Source of the DNA: Streptomyces sp. SirexAA-E
Lineage (GTDB): Bacteria; Actinomycetota; Actinomycetes; Streptomycetales; Streptomycetaceae
DNA length: 64,000 nt
Assembly: GCF_000177195.2 (NCBI RefSeq)
Contig: NC_015953.1
Coordinates: forward strand, 620,001 to 684,000
Direction: 5' to 3'
Position 1 is the stretch's first letter; every line of letters begins with the position of its first letter. The position numbers and the translations under genes were made by a program. Below, piece by piece: positions 52,697-64,000 of this stretch. Below the pieces are notes generated by a model. That model ran no database searches. It was given only the letters and a program-made list of their open reading frames with translations, and had not been told where the DNA came from.

Positions 52697-54514
52697 TCAG
52701 GTGACCGCGGGGGCCGGGGCGGGGGCCGTGCTGCCGTCGCGGCGGAGCAGCGCGGCGTACCGGCCGTCCTGTTCGACGAGTTCCTCGTGGGTGCCGCGCT
52801 CGGCGGCGCGGCCGCCGTCCAGGACGACGATCTGGTCGGCGTCGCGGACGGTGGAGAGGCGGTGGGCGATGGTCAGGGTGGTGCGGCCCGCCGACAGCGC
52901 GTCGATCGCCTGCTGCACGGCGTGTTCCGTACGGGTGTCGAGGGCGCTGGTCGCCTCGTCGAGGATGAGGACGGGCGGGTCCCGCAGGATGGTGCGGGCG
53001 ATGGCCAGCCGCTGCTTCTCGCCGCCCGAGAAGCGGTGACCGCGTTCGCCGACCAGGGTGTCGTAGCCGTCGGGCAGGGACGCGATGTGCTCGTGGATCT
53101 GGGCGGCGCGCGCCGCGGCCTCGATCTCCTCGGAGGTGGCGTCCGGCTTGGCGAAGCGGAGGTTCTCCGCGACGGAGGCGTGGAAGAGGTAGGTCTCCTG
53201 GGAGACCACACCGACGGCCCGGGCCAGGGTGTCGAAGTCCAGGTCCCGGACGTCGACGCCGTCGAGGGTGACCCGGCCGCCGGTGACGTCGTACAGCCGC
53301 GGCACCAGATAGCTCAGCGTGGACTTCCCGGAACCGGTGGGCCCGACGACCGCCAGGCTGTGTCCGGCCGGCACGGTCACGTCGATGCCGCTCAGGGTCG
53401 GAGCGGACTGCCCGTCGTAGCTGAAGGTGACGTCCTCGAAGGCGATCTCACCGCGGACCTTCTCCAGCCGGACGGGCTTCTCGGGCTCGGTGATGTCCAC
53501 GTCGAGATCGAGGTACTCGAAGATCCGCTGGAAGAGGGCGAGGGACGTCTGCATCTGCACGCCGGTGGAGAGCAGGCTCACGGCCGGGCGGAAGAGGCCC
53601 TGCTGGAGCGAGACGAAGGCGACCAGGGTGCCGAGGGAGACCGATGTCACGCCGGAGCGGAGGGTGAGGCCGGCCGCCCAGTAGATGACGGCGGGCATGG
53701 CCGCCATGACGATGCCGATGGTGGACATGCGCCAGCGGCCCGCCATGCTGGAACGCACCTCCAGGTCGACCAGCCGCTCCGACTCCTCGGCGAACGCCTT
53801 GGTGAGCGAGTCCGAGCGGCCCATGGTGCGGCCGAGCAGGATGCCGCTGACCGAGAGCGACTCGGTGACCGTGGCCGCCATCGCGGCCATCTGCTTCTGG
53901 CGCTGGGTGGTGATCTTCTTGCGCTCCTGGCCGACGCGGCGGCTGATCCACACGAAGACGGGCAGCAGGAGCAGCGAGACGACGGTGAGCCGCCAGTCCA
54001 GCGCGAGCATGGCGACCACGGTGGCGATGACCGCGGTGAGGTTGGAGACCAGCGAGGTCGCGGTCGAGGTGACCGTCGCCTGCATCCCGCCGATGTCGTT
54101 GGCGATGCGGGACTGGACCTCACCGGTGCGGGTCCTGGTGAAGAAGGCGAGCGGCATGCGCTGGAGCTGGGTGTAGACGGCGGTGCGCAGGTCGTGCATG
54201 ACCCGCTGGCCGACCGTCGTGGAGATCAGGGTCTGCAGCACGCCGAACACGCTGTTGGTCACGGCCGTGAGGACCATACCGAGCGCGAGCAGCGTGAGCA
54301 GCCCCGTGCGCCCCTGCGGGATCGCGGTGTCCAGGATCTCGCGGAGCAGGAACGGGGAGGCGACGGACACCAGCGAGGAGGCGCCGACCAGCAGCCCCAC
54401 CAGGGCGAGCCTGCCGCGGTAGGGGCGGAAGAGGCGGAAGATGCGGCGCAGCTCGGCGGGCGGCTGGCCGCCGTCCCGCGCGGGGGGTGTCCACAGAGGT
54501 TCGTCGGGTTTCAT
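52697..54514 (-). CDS. ABC exporter half-transporter (membrane domain plus ATPase)
   Basis: 605-residue homodimeric-type multidrug or lipid exporter. Six helices lie in about 30-320. The ATPase is complete: Walker A GPTGSGKST, Q-loop VSQETYLF, signature FSGGEKQRLAIAR, Walker B VLILDEATSALD, H-loop IAHRLSTV. ATG 54514 (MKPDEPLWTP) follows AAGGAG; the ATG at 54595 would put the start inside the MarR operator. Divergent from the MarR gene, so likely under its control. Confidence 0.92.
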   Translation of the reverse strand: MKPDEPLWTPPARDGGQPPAELRRIFRLFRPYRGRLALVGLLVGASSLVSVASPFLLREILDTAIPQGRTGLLTLLALGMVLTAVTNSVFGVLQTLISTTVGQRVMHDLRTAVYTQLQRMPLAFFTRTRTGEVQSRIANDIGGMQATVTSTATSLVSNLTAVIATVVAMLALDWRLTVVSLLLLPVFVWISRRVGQERKKITTQRQKQMAAMAATVTESLSVSGILLGRTMGRSDSLTKAFAEESERLVDLEVRSSMAGRWRMSTIGIVMAAMPAVIYWAAGLTLRSGVTSVSLGTLVAFVSLQQGLFRPAVSLLSTGVQMQTSLALFQRIFEYLDLDVDITEPEKPVRLEKVRGEIAFEDVTFSYDGQSAPTLSGIDVTVPAGHSLAVVGPTGSGKSTLSYLVPRLYDVTGGRVTLDGVDVRDLDFDTLARAVGVVSQETYLFHASVAENLRFAKPDATSEEIEAAARAAQIHEHIASLPDGYDTLVGERGHRFSGGEKQRLAIARTILRDPPVLILDEATSALDTRTEHAVQQAIDALSAGRTTLTIAHRLSTVRDADQIVVLDGGRAAERGTHEELVEQDGRYAALLRRDGSTAPAPAPAVT

Positions 54515-54592
54515 GGGCTCCTTCGACCGGGACGAGGCGGGCGGAAACGGGATCAGGAAGGACAGGGAGCCGGCCTCTTCGAGAGGATAGCT

Positions 54593-54635
54593 CATTGTTA
54601 CCTGTACTCACAATGAACAAGGTCCTGTTATTGTT
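54593..54635. promoter_or_regulatory. Candidate MarR operators
   Basis: AT-rich island in GC-rich DNA between the ABC and MarR genes. CATTGT (54593-54598) mirrors ACAATG (54610-54615), and AACAA (54616-54620) mirrors TTGTT (54631-54635). Two adjacent dyads with 10-11-bp spacers suit dimeric MarR proteins and would cover both promoters. Confidence 0.6.
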
Positions 54636-59819: not shown

Positions 59820-59999
59820 GTGCGTTCGACGCCCCGCCGCCCCTGCGGCGGCGGGGCCTGTCCCGGGACCGGCAGAGGCTGTCACGGCGAAATAAATCGC
59901 TTGCCTCGCAGAGGGGCGGGAAGCGAACCTTGCACGGTTTGCTCCCCCTGTTCCACGAGATCCCTACGGGTCTCCGCTCCTTCCGATCCTTGGGACGTC

Positions 60000-61922
60000 A
60001 TGCAGATTCGCGATCTTCCGTACTCGGATCCCGGCGATCCCGACGTCAGGTCGGGTCCACGTTTCCTCCTGTGGCTGGGCCGCGGTCAGCTCACCGGCCA
60101 GCTCAAGTCCCTCTTCTGGGGGCTGATGCACCAGTGCGCGATCGCCGGGCTGCCGCTCGGCGTGGGACTCGCGGTCCAGGCCGTCGTCGAACGCTCCGGC
60201 CGCTCTCTCGCGATCGCCGGGGTGCTCATCGCCGCGCTGGGCGTCCTGATCGCGGTGGGTGACACCATGCTCCACCGGACGGCGGTCACCAACTGGATCA
60301 CCGCGGCGGCCCGGGTGCAGCAGCTGCTGGCGCGCAAGACGGCCGAGCTGGGGTCGGCGCTGACCCGGCGGGTCGCGGCGGGTGAGGTCGTCGCCGTCTC
60401 CACCGGGGACGTCGAGAAGATCGGCTGGTTCGTCGAGGCACTGTCACGATTCGCCGCCGCCGCGGTCGCCCTCGTCCTGATCTGCGTGGGGCTCGTCCTC
60501 TACCTCCCCTCCCTGGGCCTGCTGGTCGCGCTCGCGGTGCCCGCCCTCGCCCTCGCGGTCCTGCCGCTCCTCCCCCGGGCCACCCGGCGGGCGGACGTCC
60601 AGCGTGAGAAGGCGGGTCACGCCACCGAGCTGGCCTCCGACACGGTGGCGGGGCTCCGGGTGCTGCGAGGGATCGGCGGCGAGGAGTTGTTCCTCGGCCG
60701 CTACCGGCGCGCCTCCCAGGAGGTGCGCGAGGCGGCGGTGCGCAGCGCGCGCATGTGGGCCCTGATCTCGGCGGTCCAGGTGCTCCTGCCCGGGCTGCTG
60801 CTGATCGCACTGGTCCGGTACGGGGCCGCACTGGTCCAGGACGGCCGGATCGAGGTCGGGCAGCTGGTCACCGTCTACAGTGCCGCGACACTGATGCTCT
60901 TCCCGCTGCGGCACTTCGAGGAGATCGCCATGGCGTACTCCTTCTCCCGGCCCTCCGCGCAGCGGGCCGTCCGGGTGCTGGCCCTGAAGCGCAGCACCCA
61001 GCCGTCGACGCTCGGTGCCATGGTCCCGGAAGGTGACCTCTACGACCCGGTGACCGGACTGCTGGCGCCTCGGGGCCTGTTCACCGCCGTGGTCTGCGGC
61101 GACCCCGACGAGGCGGGCCGACTGGCCGACCGGCTCGGCGGCCACGCCGAGCCGGACAGCACACGGGCGGACGGCGGCGAAGGGGGCGGCGAGGCGGACA
61201 CGGCCGGAGCGGACGGCACCGGGCAGGACCGTGCCGGTCCACGGCCGCTCCCCTCGGTCCTGCTGGGTGGCGTGGCCCTGGACGAGCTGCCGCTCGACTC
61301 GGCCCGGACCGCGGTGCTCGTGCAGGACAAGGACCCGGTGCTGCTCTCCGGGACGCTGCGCGAACTGCTGGACGTACCGTCGGCGGGCACGGTGGCCGCT
61401 GAGGACGCCCTGGCAGCCGCGCAGTGTGCCGACGTGCTGGACGCGCTGGCCCAGGCGTCCGTCGACGCGGACGGCGATCCCATGAACACCCGGATCACCG
61501 AGCGGGGCCGCTCCCTCTCCGGCGGTCAGCGGCAGCGGCTCGCGCTGGCGCGCTCCCTGGTCACCGATCCCGAGGCACTGGTGCTGGACGAGCCGACGTC
61601 CGCCGTCGACTCGCACACGGAGGCCCGGGTCGCCGCCGGTGTGAAGCGACTGCGGCGGGGCCGCACGACGGTGGCGTTCTCCTCGTCCCCCTTGCTGCTG
61701 GACCTCGCCGACCGGGTGGCGCTGGTGCGCGGCGGCCGGGTCGTGGCAGCCGGTACCCACCGTGACCTGCTGCGGGACGAGCCGTACTACCGTGCCGTCG
61801 TCACCCGGGAGAGCGACGACGGCACCGCGGCCCCGGCCGCCCAGGACGCACAGGACCGGCTCGCCTCGATCGACGCGTCGCGGACGGCCGCAGCCATCGA
61901 GGACATCGAGGAGAGGGCATGA
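60000..61922 (+). CDS. Heterodimeric ABC exporter subunit with degenerate Walker A
   Basis: 640 residues: six membrane helices in about 25-320 and an ATPase-like domain after about 345. The P-loop is gone: the position reads CGDPDEAGRLAD (366-377) with no GKS/T. The signature LSGGQ (506-510) and Walker B LVLDEPTSA (Asp530, Glu531) remain; the switch His is Ser561. A Glu/Asp/Gly-rich insert (about 385-420) replaces part of the core. ATG 60000. The stop overlaps the partner gene's ATG as ATGA, so the two chains are made together. Substrate unknown. Confidence 0.9.
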   Translation: MQIRDLPYSDPGDPDVRSGPRFLLWLGRGQLTGQLKSLFWGLMHQCAIAGLPLGVGLAVQAVVERSGRSLAIAGVLIAALGVLIAVGDTMLHRTAVTNWITAAARVQQLLARKTAELGSALTRRVAAGEVVAVSTGDVEKIGWFVEALSRFAAAAVALVLICVGLVLYLPSLGLLVALAVPALALAVLPLLPRATRRADVQREKAGHATELASDTVAGLRVLRGIGGEELFLGRYRRASQEVREAAVRSARMWALISAVQVLLPGLLLIALVRYGAALVQDGRIEVGQLVTVYSAATLMLFPLRHFEEIAMAYSFSRPSAQRAVRVLALKRSTQPSTLGAMVPEGDLYDPVTGLLAPRGLFTAVVCGDPDEAGRLADRLGGHAEPDSTRADGGEGGGEADTAGADGTGQDRAGPRPLPSVLLGGVALDELPLDSARTAVLVQDKDPVLLSGTLRELLDVPSAGTVAAEDALAAAQCADVLDALAQASVDADGDPMNTRITERGRSLSGGQRQRLALARSLVTDPEALVLDEPTSAVDSHTEARVAAGVKRLRRGRTTVAFSSSPLLLDLADRVALVRGGRVVAAGTHRDLLRDEPYYRAVVTRESDDGTAAPAAQDAQDRLASIDASRTAAAIEDIEERA

Positions 61923-63700
61923 CCGGCCTCGCACCACCGGCGTACGACCCGGCCGCACCGGAGTCGGCGACGACTCTGCCGGTCGGCACGCCCACGACCG
62001 TACGCACGTACGTCCGTTCCCTGCTTCGGCGTCACCGCAGGCCGTTCGCCGTGCTGATCGCGGCCAACGCGGTCGCGGTGATCGCCTCGATCACCGGTCC
62101 CTATCTGCTGGGCGGCCTGGTCGAGGACCTGTCGAACGGCGTCGGGGACCTCCATCTGGAGCGCACCGTGGCGGTGTTCGCGGTGGCCCTGGTCGTGCAG
62201 ACCGTCTTCACCCGGACCATGCGGCTGCGCGGCGCGATGCTCGGCGAGGAGATGCTCGCCGATCTGCGCGAGGACTTCCTCGTCCGCTCGGTCGGACTGC
62301 CCCCGGGTGTACTGGAGCGGGCGGGCACCGGTGATCTGCTGTCCAGGATCACCACGGACATCGACCGGCTGGCCAACGCGATGCGGGAGGCCGTGCCGCA
62401 GCTGGCGATCGGTGTGGTGTGGGTGGGGCTGCTGATCGGCGCGCTCACCGTCACCGCCCCGCCGCTGGCCCTCGCGGTGCTGATCGCCCTGCCGGTGCTG
62501 CTCGTCGGCTGCCGGTGGTACTTCCGGCGGGCGCCGTCCGCGTACCGTTCGGAGGCCGCCGGATACGCGGCGGTGGCCGCGGTGCTGGCCGAGACGGTGG
62601 ACGCCGGGCGGACCGTGGAGTCCCACCGTCTGGGGGCCCGCCGGGTCGCCCTGTCGGACCGCCGGATCACTCAGTGGACCGCGTGGGAGCGGTACACGCT
62701 CTTCCTGCGCTCGGTGCTCTTCCCCGTCATCAACGCCACCTATGTGACGATCCTGGGCGCGGTGCTGCTGCTCGGCGGCTGGTTCGTGATCGAGGGGTGG
62801 CTCACCGTCGGGCAGCTGACGACGGGGGCGCTGCTGGCGCAGATGATGGTGGATCCGATCGGCCTGATCCTGCGCTGGTACGACGAGTTGCAGGTCGCCC
62901 AGGTGTCGCTGGCCCGGCTCGTCGGCGTGCGGGAGATCGAGCCCGACGCCGGGGACGACCGGGTCGGGCCGGACGGCCGGGAGGTCCGGGCGGAGGAGGT
63001 GCGCTTCGGCTACCGCGCCGGTGTGGACGTCCTGCACGACGTGTCGCTGGCTGTCGCCCCGGGCACGCGGGTGGCGCTGGTCGGGCCGTCGGGGGCGGGC
63101 AAGTCCACTCTGGGCCGTCTGCTGGCCGGGATCTACGCTCCCCGGAGCGGCGAGGTCACCCTCGGCGGGGCCGAGCTGTCCCGGATGACGGCCGAGCGGG
63201 TGCGGAGCCATGTGGCCCTGGTCAACCAGGAGCACCACGTGTTCGTGGGGACGCTCCGGGACAACCTGCTCCTGGCCCGTACGGACGCCGAGGACGCGCA
63301 GCTGTGGGCCTCGCTCGCGGCGGTCGACGCGGACGGCTGGGCCAAGGCGCTGGACGACGGCCTGGACACCGAGGTCGGCTCGGGAAGCGTGTCGCTGACC
63401 CCGGCGCAGGCGCAGCAGATCGCCCTGGCCCGGCTGGTGCTGGCGGACCCGCACACGCTGGTGCTGGACGAGGCGACCTCACTGCTCGACCCGCGGGCGG
63501 CCCGGCACCTGGAGCGTTCCCTGGCCCAGGTGCTGGACGGCCGTACGGTGATCGCGATCGCCCACCGGCTGCACACGGCTCACGACGCGGACGTGATCGC
63601 GGTCGTGGAGAACGGCCGGATCGCCGAACTGGGCAGTCACGACGAGCTGGTCGCGGCGGACGGCGCGTACGCGGCCCTGTGGCGCTCCTGGCACGGGTGA
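61919..63700 (+). CDS. Heterodimeric ABC exporter subunit with degenerate signature motif
   Basis: 593 residues, partner of the preceding gene. Membrane domain about 35-330. ATPase: intact Walker A GPSGAGKST (Lys395), Walker B LVLDEATSLLD (Asp517, Glu518) and H-loop His549 (IAHRLHTA). The signature, however, is LTPAQ (493-497) instead of LSGGQ. ABC dimers build each ATP site from one subunit's Walker motifs and the other's signature, so this chain supplies the catalytic half of the single predicted active site. ATG 61919 overlaps the upstream stop. Confidence 0.92.
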   Translation: MTGLAPPAYDPAAPESATTLPVGTPTTVRTYVRSLLRRHRRPFAVLIAANAVAVIASITGPYLLGGLVEDLSNGVGDLHLERTVAVFAVALVVQTVFTRTMRLRGAMLGEEMLADLREDFLVRSVGLPPGVLERAGTGDLLSRITTDIDRLANAMREAVPQLAIGVVWVGLLIGALTVTAPPLALAVLIALPVLLVGCRWYFRRAPSAYRSEAAGYAAVAAVLAETVDAGRTVESHRLGARRVALSDRRITQWTAWERYTLFLRSVLFPVINATYVTILGAVLLLGGWFVIEGWLTVGQLTTGALLAQMMVDPIGLILRWYDELQVAQVSLARLVGVREIEPDAGDDRVGPDGREVRAEEVRFGYRAGVDVLHDVSLAVAPGTRVALVGPSGAGKSTLGRLLAGIYAPRSGEVTLGGAELSRMTAERVRSHVALVNQEHHVFVGTLRDNLLLARTDAEDAQLWASLAAVDADGWAKALDDGLDTEVGSGSVSLTPAQAQQIALARLVLADPHTLVLDEATSLLDPRAARHLERSLAQVLDGRTVIAIAHRLHTAHDADVIAVVENGRIAELGSHDELVAADGAYAALWRSWHG

Positions 63701-63755: not shown

Positions 63756-64000
63756 ATGACGGATTCGTACAAAGATCCGGGGACCCCGGACTGTCGTAGC
63801 GCCGCGCGATACCTGCTCTGGCTGATCACCCGTCAGCGCCGCCGGATCGCCGCCGGTGCGCTGCTGGGCAGTGCCTGGATGGTCTGTCTGACGGTGCCGC
63901 CGTACCTGCTCTCACGCGCCATCGACGACGGGCTGGAGTCCGGCCGGTGGTCCGCCCTGGCCGGCTGGGTGGCGGCGTTGCTGGGTGTGGGGGTGCTGAA
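63756..64000 (+). CDS. Third ABC exporter gene, N-terminal part (cut by window)
   Basis: ATG 63756 opens a frame to the window edge, 81 codons: MTDSYKDPGTPDCRSAARYL, then a basic RQRRR and two hydrophobic stretches (GALLGSAWMVCLTVPPYLLS and LAGWVAALLGVGVL). The layout matches the start of the gene at 60000 (short Asp/Pro-rich tail, RFLLWL, basic turn, helix 1), so a second, paralogous exporter pair probably follows. Placed right after the terminator. Confidence 0.75.
   Translation, partial: MTDSYKDPGTPDCRSAARYLLWLITRQRRRIAAGALLGSAWMVCLTVPPYLLSRAIDDGLESGRWSALAGWVAALLGVGVL

Follow-up and report, generated by a model that had tools for sequence, protein, structure and literature searches.

Gene pair and its motifs

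The window analysed here, a 64,000-nucleotide stretch of the Streptomyces sp. SirexAA-E genome (NC_015953.1, positions 620,001 to 684,000), carries two genes, for subunits A and B, whose reading frames are both present and overlap by 4 nt. A starts with ATG at 60000. The two genes are adjacent in 80/80 loci, and in 75 of these they overlap by 4 nt. In Pfam searches both products exceed the curated cut-offs for an exporter TMD (PF00664) followed by an NBD (PF00005), and nothing beyond these two domains was found in either. A matches PF00664 at 77.8 bits and PF00005 at 42.4 bits, the latter match covering the profile only from position 76, that is, downstream of the P-loop region. The window ends within subunit C, which belongs to a tandem paralogous pair, C/D, of the same layout as A/B (genome positions 683756-687273; L093:7757-11274). 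The features, all on the + strand, are as follows.

60000..61922, +, subunit A, half ABC exporter (TMD + NBD) without a P-loop, 640 aa (ORF, Pfam, motif count over 81 sequences)
61035..61079, +, A residues 346-360, the region of the partners' A-loop and adjoining strands, shortened in A (alignment)
61080..61145, +, A residues 361-382, former P-loop, FTAVVCGDPDEAGRLADRLGGH (motif count, structure model, pN/pS)
61146..61250, +, A residues 383-417, linker insert of variable sequence (pN/pS about 1.1)
61515..61529, +, A signature LSGGQ (506-510), predicted to be given to the intact site (LSGGQRQRLALARS in 81/81)
61578..61610, +, A Walker B, Glu and D-loop, LVLDEPTSAVD (527-537; 81/81)
61683..61685, +, A switch position S562, in an SSS run, His in canonical NBDs (alignment; SSPLLL in 78/81)
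61919..63700, +, subunit B, half ABC exporter with an intact P-loop, 593 aa (ORF, Pfam)
63011..63013, +, B A-loop Tyr365 (alignment)
63083..63109, +, B Walker A GPSGAGKST (389-397; P-loop in 81/81)
63395..63409, +, B degenerate signature LTPAQ (493-497; motif count over 81 B sequences)
63458..63472, +, B Walker B LVLDE (514-518; PHTLVLDEATSLLDP in 79/81, with one sequence garbled and one incomplete)
63563..63565, +, B switch His549 (79/81, with one garbled and one incomplete)
63756..64000, +, beginning of subunit C, another subunit without a P-loop (part within the window)

Complementary losses in A and B

The original prediction, that A lacks the Walker A lysine, was borne out by the motif in the window, and GxxxxGK[S/T] occurs nowhere in any of 81 A sequences (the window and 80 orthologs; 0/81). 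Sequencing error and a conserved P-loop elsewhere in the chain, both named in the prediction as grounds for giving it up, are thus ruled out. A pseudogene is ruled out by the same 81/81 sequences together with pN/pS, which is 0.125 in the former P-loop, compared with 0.267 in the TMD and about 1 in the neighbouring linkers. The former P-loop of A is under strong purifying selection. A is also 12 residues shorter than the partners at the A-loop stretch and has no Tyr at the A-loop position. In the alignment, K444 occupies the column of the partner Q-loop Gln, with Q442 two residues upstream, and S562 stands at the position of the switch His, as had been predicted.

What A keeps is equally constant. 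The LSGGQ signature, described earlier as perfect, is retained in 81/81 A sequences, as are the Walker B Asp, D530, and the catalytic Glu, E531. B shows the intact Walker A, Walker B and H-loop and the LTPAQ signature that had been reported for it. LSGGQ is found in 0/81 B sequences, and 80/81 have [LIV]TPA[QR]AQQ, the remaining one being incomplete at the signature. A complete composite site can be assembled from the A-loop, Walker A, Q-loop, Walker B with Glu, and His of B and the signature of A. The earlier claim that exactly one composite site is complete stands, and the complementary loss is invariant in the orthologs and holds across the family (34/34 and 32/32). The accompanying claim that the other site lacks both halves needs qualifying: given that A keeps D530 and E531, the dead site retains some consensus residues, and with Q442 only two residues off the Q-loop position, weak nucleotide contact is possible. 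Walker A, expected in every NBD of a type IV exporter, occurs in 81/81 B and 0/81 A sequences, and the loss of the catalytic Glu expected in the degenerate subunit of an exporter with one degenerate site is not seen in A, which has D530-E531.

In an AlphaFold model of moderate confidence (mean pLDDT 75, pTM 0.46), A retains the exporter fold, and the model gives full-length matches to IrtAB, MsRv1273c/72c, TmrAB chain B and TM287/288 chain A. The former P-loop is predicted to form a strand (361-366), a two-residue turn and a helix (369-379). A control model of B had a mean pLDDT of 46 and was set aside.

Distribution and ancestry of the layout

Matches to A were found in 188/199 genomes of the genus (E <= 1e-75; counted by match, with the P-loop state not read) and in 30/396 genomes of a phylum sample (E <= 1e-90), which rules out a single-genome oddity. 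The best match fetched lacks the P-loop in 28 of these 30 genomes and is canonical in two (G134, G031). The resulting 28/396 is a lower bound, because only three candidates were scored per genome and the E cut was strict.

Similar pairs with the same layout occur in further actinobacterial families. We compared 82 aligned sequences, 34 of them P-loop-less; seven more P-loop-less subunits (L166, L183, L185, L186, L190, L192 and A of L069) were omitted with their partners from the table and tree. SGGQ is kept in 34/34 P-loop-less subunits, and the 32 aligned partners all combine an intact P-loop with the absence of SGGQ (0/32). The A-loop Tyr is present in 0/34 P-loop-less subunits, 32/32 partners and 16/16 canonical controls. 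The P-loop Lys is replaced by Ala or Ser in all 34 and the last P-loop Gly by Asp or Glu in 21 of them. Of the 26 tabulated C- and P-type relatives, 25 have also lost the Walker B Asp, and eight of 11 P-type relatives have HD at the position of D530-E531. Pumps of this kind currently carry the generic annotation of ABC transporter ATP-binding proteins. Two P-type relatives are found in putative siderophore loci, one of which adjoins iron-uptake genes. A further P-loop-less subunit, P3, is encoded in the same genome as A (about 708148-709788), apparently without a partner.

In the 82-row TMD-only tree, the P-loop-less subunits form one clade and their partners another (100/100 and 100/99), and the two divide in parallel, A/C from P and B/D from Q. 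The nearest clades are the first and second subunits of canonical pairs with a conventional degenerate site, although these joins are not strong (94/86 and 90/89, midpoint root). A single origin, within a heterodimer one of whose sites was already degenerate in the conventional way, would be the simplest explanation, and the layout would then have been retained across many actinobacterial lineages, where it probably serves the export of secondary metabolites, siderophores or drugs.

One relative has an annotated function. TetA/TetB of Corynebacterium striatum pTP10 carries the annotation of an ABC transporter for tetracycline efflux, and PMC8304765 lists it as a tetracycline efflux pair. Like A, TetA has no P-loop and keeps LSGGQ; like B, TetB has an intact P-loop (GTSGAGKST) and a changed signature. 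In a 59-row TMD-only tree, which leaves out two long-branch canonical rows of L100 and P_L170, TetA joins the A clade and TetB the B clade, both at 100/100 and both on long branches. They differ from A/B in falling on the P/Q side and in being shorter (513 and 528 aa); TetA has lost its ATP half in a different manner, and TetAB is a plasmid-borne drug efflux system. Given that A scores 74.2 bits against the NCBIfam cut-off of 1025 bits for TetAB subunit A, it is a relative of TetA and not TetA itself. That family model had zero matches in the 396 genomes at E <= 1e-60 and, among 14 control genomes, a match below the cut-off in Corynebacterium glutamicum only. Judged by motifs and trees, the P-loop-less/partner layout is a widespread actinobacterial clade that includes TetAB.

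A putative exporter with one working site

Most probably, A and B make up an obligate heterodimer of the type IV exporter class with a single working nucleotide site and an opposite site (site 1) free of nucleotide, a reading to which we assign a probability of roughly 0.8. On the motifs, one complete ATP site is predicted to arise only in the A/B heterodimer. ATP would be held by Tyr365, GPSGAGKST, Q437, D517/E518 and H549 of B and clamped by the LSGGQ and D-loop of A, and hydrolysis there would power the cycle. A would be a pseudo-ATPase contributing half a site. Site 1 seems to have abandoned nucleotide, with the A-loop stretch of A shortened and the signature of B altered too. In place of the P-loop, A may have a tight turn leading into a helix capped by a conserved DPDxA, whose acidic groups would sit where phosphates would be. 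The prediction that the degenerate site binds no ATP is well supported at the sequence level. The sequences directly show which motifs are lost and kept, how far they are conserved, the pairing of the genes and the structure of the clades; from them we infer the heterodimer, the empty site 1, one ATP per cycle, the transport direction and the substrate.

Site 1 could instead bind ATP or ADP non-canonically through Walker B of A and residues of B, ATP acting as the usual glue. The invariance of D530 and E531 fits this, as do the degenerate sites in the reviewed transporters, whose MgATP affinity is comparable to that of canonical sites according to PMC7756269. However, A lacks the A-loop Tyr, the P-loop glycines and Lys, the Q-loop Gln and the switch His, and the frequent loss of the Walker B Asp among relatives and the acidic residue in place of the last P-loop Gly also make such binding unlikely. 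Less probable still is that A is regulatory and stands outside any ATP-driven pump with B, which would act as a homodimer or with another partner. The apparently unpartnered P3 indicates that P-loop-less subunits are not always encoded next to a partner, but LSGGQ would be missing altogether from a homodimer of B, and both the constant adjacency of A and B and the parallel splits of the two clades argue for a pair.

The pair could also be an importer with an exporter fold. IrtAB, which imports iron-loaded siderophores according to PMC10246721, is among the structural matches to the model of A, and the two P-type relatives in siderophore loci point the same way. We consider this improbable given that Pfam shows no extra domain in A and B beyond TMD and NBD, that efflux is the annotated role of the relative TetAB, and that siderophore genes are absent among the annotated subset of A/B neighbours.

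The exporter with one working site invites a broader proposal, to which we give slightly less than even odds. A, C, TetA and their relatives may be pseudo-ATPases of natural one-ATP exporters, in which the second site would be a permanent nucleotide-free hinge, with a helix whose acidic cap (DPDxA in A) replaces the ATP phosphates against the altered signature helix of the partner; ATP at the degenerate site would then be dispensable for alternating access. PMC12038006 names the purpose of the degenerate site in heterodimeric ABC exporters as an open question and mentions the idea that ATP held there serves as glue. If the inference is true, this clade has dispensed with that ATP and yet keeps functional pumps, so that the question of purpose becomes one for a direct stoichiometry experiment. 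The layout also offers a recognisable sequence class for such pumps, one of them a named drug-resistance pump.

In TM287/288, TmrAB, MsRv1273c/72c, BmrCD and TAP, LSGGQ stays with the catalytically poor subunit and the altered signature is on its partner, and the degenerate subunit retains the A-loop and P-loop and binds ATP. Canonical pairs in our table show the same distribution of signatures, and the degenerate subunit retains the A-loop and P-loop in 16/16 controls. Like all of these, A/B consists of two half transporters with one consensus site; unlike them, A has lost both the A-loop and the P-loop. Pdr5 and ABCG5/G8 also have a degenerate site with an altered Walker A Lys (Cys and Arg, respectively) and a changed signature (PMC7756269), but these are eukaryotic and the substitution lies within Walker A, whereas A has lost both glycines and Lys of the P-loop as well as the A-loop Tyr. 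In TetAB(60), an ordinary heterodimer, resistance disappeared when either Walker A region was deleted (PMC5138185), so the loss of one P-loop here must have been compensated. Among the matches listed from open-licence PMC text, seen in part, we recognised no description of P-loop-less exporter subunits. Given that known degenerate sites are reported to bind ATP, the A/B layout appears to be new among exporters with one degenerate site.

Motif content of the A/B pair

The window (positions 620001-684000 of the genome's single 7.41 Mb contig) encodes the following half ABC exporters, in window coordinates:

60000-61922, subunit A, a half exporter lacking a P-loop, 640 aa
61919-63700, subunit B, its P-loop-bearing partner, 593 aa
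52697-54595, minus strand, another half ABC exporter, with a PF00005 match spanning the whole NBD length

The A and B genes share an ATGA overlap. A longer open frame of A extends upstream to a GTG at 59820; the start codon is likely the ATG at 60000, because the frame of some orthologs is open for only two (L068) or nine (L016 and L044) codons ahead of the matching ATG. Both proteins have PF00664 and PF00005 domains (Pfam), the PF00005 match in A starting only at profile position 76, i.e., past the P-loop.

Compared with partner chains, A has lost the P-loop glycines and lysine as well as the A-loop tyrosine, in a stretch 12 residues shorter, and has K444 in the Q-loop glutamine column and S562 at the switch histidine position. 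It retains the Walker B Asp and Glu, the D-loop and the signature, while B is complete for all motifs but the signature. Given these losses, the ATP half of B and the LSGGQ of A are predicted to form one complete site, with the opposite site incomplete, and neither an A nor a B homodimer would have a complete site. The motifs quoted in the original prediction were all found in the window sequence, and its claim of just one complete composite site is borne out by the complementary motif content of A and B.

An AlphaFold model of A built from 45 sequences (mean pLDDT 75, pTM 0.46) retains the whole exporter fold. Its best structural match is the ComA NBD (Z 23.8, rmsd 2.6 over 223 residues), and its full-length matches are IrtAB, MsRv1273c/72c, TmrAB and TM287/288 (Z 22 to 23, rmsd about 10). 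Because a two-residue turn joins strand 361-366 to a helix starting at P369, a capped helix start appears to take the place of the phosphate-binding loop in the model, and we infer that its acidic cap may stand in for phosphate.

Conservation and constraint at the former P-loop

A scan of named genomes found at least 80 loci with A/B orthologs, and all 80 named relatives listed are Streptomyces. Every listed locus has A followed by B, and in 75 of them the two genes overlap by 4 nt; in L063 the contig ends within B. Within the genus, 188 of 199 genomes have an A match at E <= 1e-75, counted by E-value alone. A relative of the half exporter at 52697-54595 (at least 50% identity) lies near A/B in 60 of the 80 loci.

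With the window included, LSGGQRQRLALARS and LVLDEPTSAVD occur in all 81 A sequences. The original prediction allowed for a conserved P-loop elsewhere in A, and GxxxxGK[S/T] was found nowhere in these proteins (0/81). All 81 B sequences have a P-loop and none has LSGGQ; [LIV]TPA[QR]AQQ is present in 80. In the former P-loop of A (residues 361-382), C366, G367, P369, D370, A372 and G373 are identical throughout and D368 is kept in 80 sequences, with Glu at residue 371 in only 40.

By the Nei-Gojobori method, with at most 800 pairs sampled, this segment has a pN/pS of 0.125, the N-terminus plus TMD of A 0.267, and the part from its signature to the D-loop 0.048. The ratio reaches 0.911 and 1.097 in the variable linkers 331-345 and 383-417, both poorly aligned; the second, an insert just after the former P-loop (window 61146-61250), varies in length among orthologs. 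The conservation and pN/pS of the former P-loop therefore rule out a decaying remnant, although its constraint is weaker than in a working P-loop (0.037 in that of B).

A family of P-loop-less subunits and its origin

Further P-loop-less subunits are encoded in the same genome:

window 63756 onward, genome 683756-687273 (L093:7757-11274), C/D, a tandem second P-loop-less pair directly after A/B
genome about 708148-709788 (L193:2152-3906), minus strand, P3, a third P-loop-less subunit

C also lacks the Walker B Asp (LLAVEP), and D has PDGAQ in place of LSGGQ. The C/D pair (at least 50% identity) was found next to A/B in one of the 80 other listed loci (L069). No P-loop-bearing partner of P3 was seen within the 9 kb fetched, nor in about 7.5-8 kb around P3-like genes from two further genomes of the genus (L170 and L190). 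P3 adjoins a gene read by eye as a putative NRPS adenylation domain.

In a sample of the phylum, 30 of 396 genomes match a profile of P-loop-less subunits at E <= 1e-90; of the 30 fetched matches, 28 (from 11 family codes) have no P-loop and two are canonical. We aligned 82 half transporters (34 P-loop-less subunits, 32 partners and 16 canonical subunits).

Motif residues in the aligned set (P-loop-less; partners; canonical)
P-loop Lys column: Ala 31, Ser 3; Lys in all 48 others
Last P-loop Gly changed to Asp or Glu: 21/34 P-loop-less
SGGQ: 34/34; 0/32 partners
Switch His: 0/34; 32/32; 15/16
A-loop Tyr: 0/34; 32/32; 16/16

The A of the window is one of the milder cases, since 25 of 26 rows of the C type and the related P type have lost the Walker B Asp too.

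In a midpoint-rooted tree of this set, built on the transmembrane parts only (no ATP motifs), the 34 P-loop-less subunits lie on one side of a 100/100 branch and the 32 partners are separated by another (100/99). Seven canonical first-type subunits, each with DD at Walker B, join the former (94/86); the latter are joined by six canonical second-type subunits, whose signatures are SAGQ, SAGE or SSGE (90/89). These joins are not strongly supported (98/87 and 96/86 in a tree with fewer rows), and there are long branches among the canonical rows. The simplest reading of the sequences is that the P-loop was lost once, in a heterodimer that would already have had a conventional degenerate site, and that both chains were then inherited together.

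Possible function and relation to known exporters

The annotated neighbours of A/B (a GH109-like oxidoreductase, an FAD/Fe-S dehydrogenase, a DNA ligase and a DUF3516 helicase) are only partly conserved and gave no substrate clue. Two P-type pairs adjoin putative siderophore genes: those in Streptomyces sp. NBC_01558 are for a SidA-type monooxygenase and iron-chelate uptake, and those in Tsukamurella tyrosinosolvens for an isochorismate synthase and an isochorismatase; no siderophore-like gene was found beside the Pseudonocardia pair.

The best evidence that this layout can work as an exporter comes from a pair of Corynebacterium striatum:

L194:4566-7694, tetA/tetB of plasmid pTP10, tetracycline efflux pair

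Like A, TetA lacks a P-loop and has LSGGQ; like B, TetB has a P-loop (GTSGAGKST) and a changed signature region (DIPPEVEQQ). PMC8304765 lists TetA/TetB as a transporter for the efflux of tetracycline and beta-lactams. In the tree with fewer rows, to which both proteins were added and in which they form long branches, each of the two groups has 100/100 support. One annotation source in the pTP10 record calls TetA an MFS pump.

A review of degenerate-site exporters describes the MgATP affinity of the degenerate site as comparable to that of the canonical one, and counts Pdr5 (Lys to Cys) among the largest deviations (PMC7756269). Both sites of MsRv1273c/72c are described as containing ATP in PMC12038006, and for TetAB(60), an ordinary heterodimer, PMC5138185 reports that resistance was lost entirely when either Walker A region was deleted. 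Within the open-licence literature searched, the P-loop-less variant appears undescribed. We regard A/B as a variant of the degenerate-site exporters because the rule of a P-loop in each chain fails: the pair is predicted to work like these known systems, but without the P-loop that they have in each chain.
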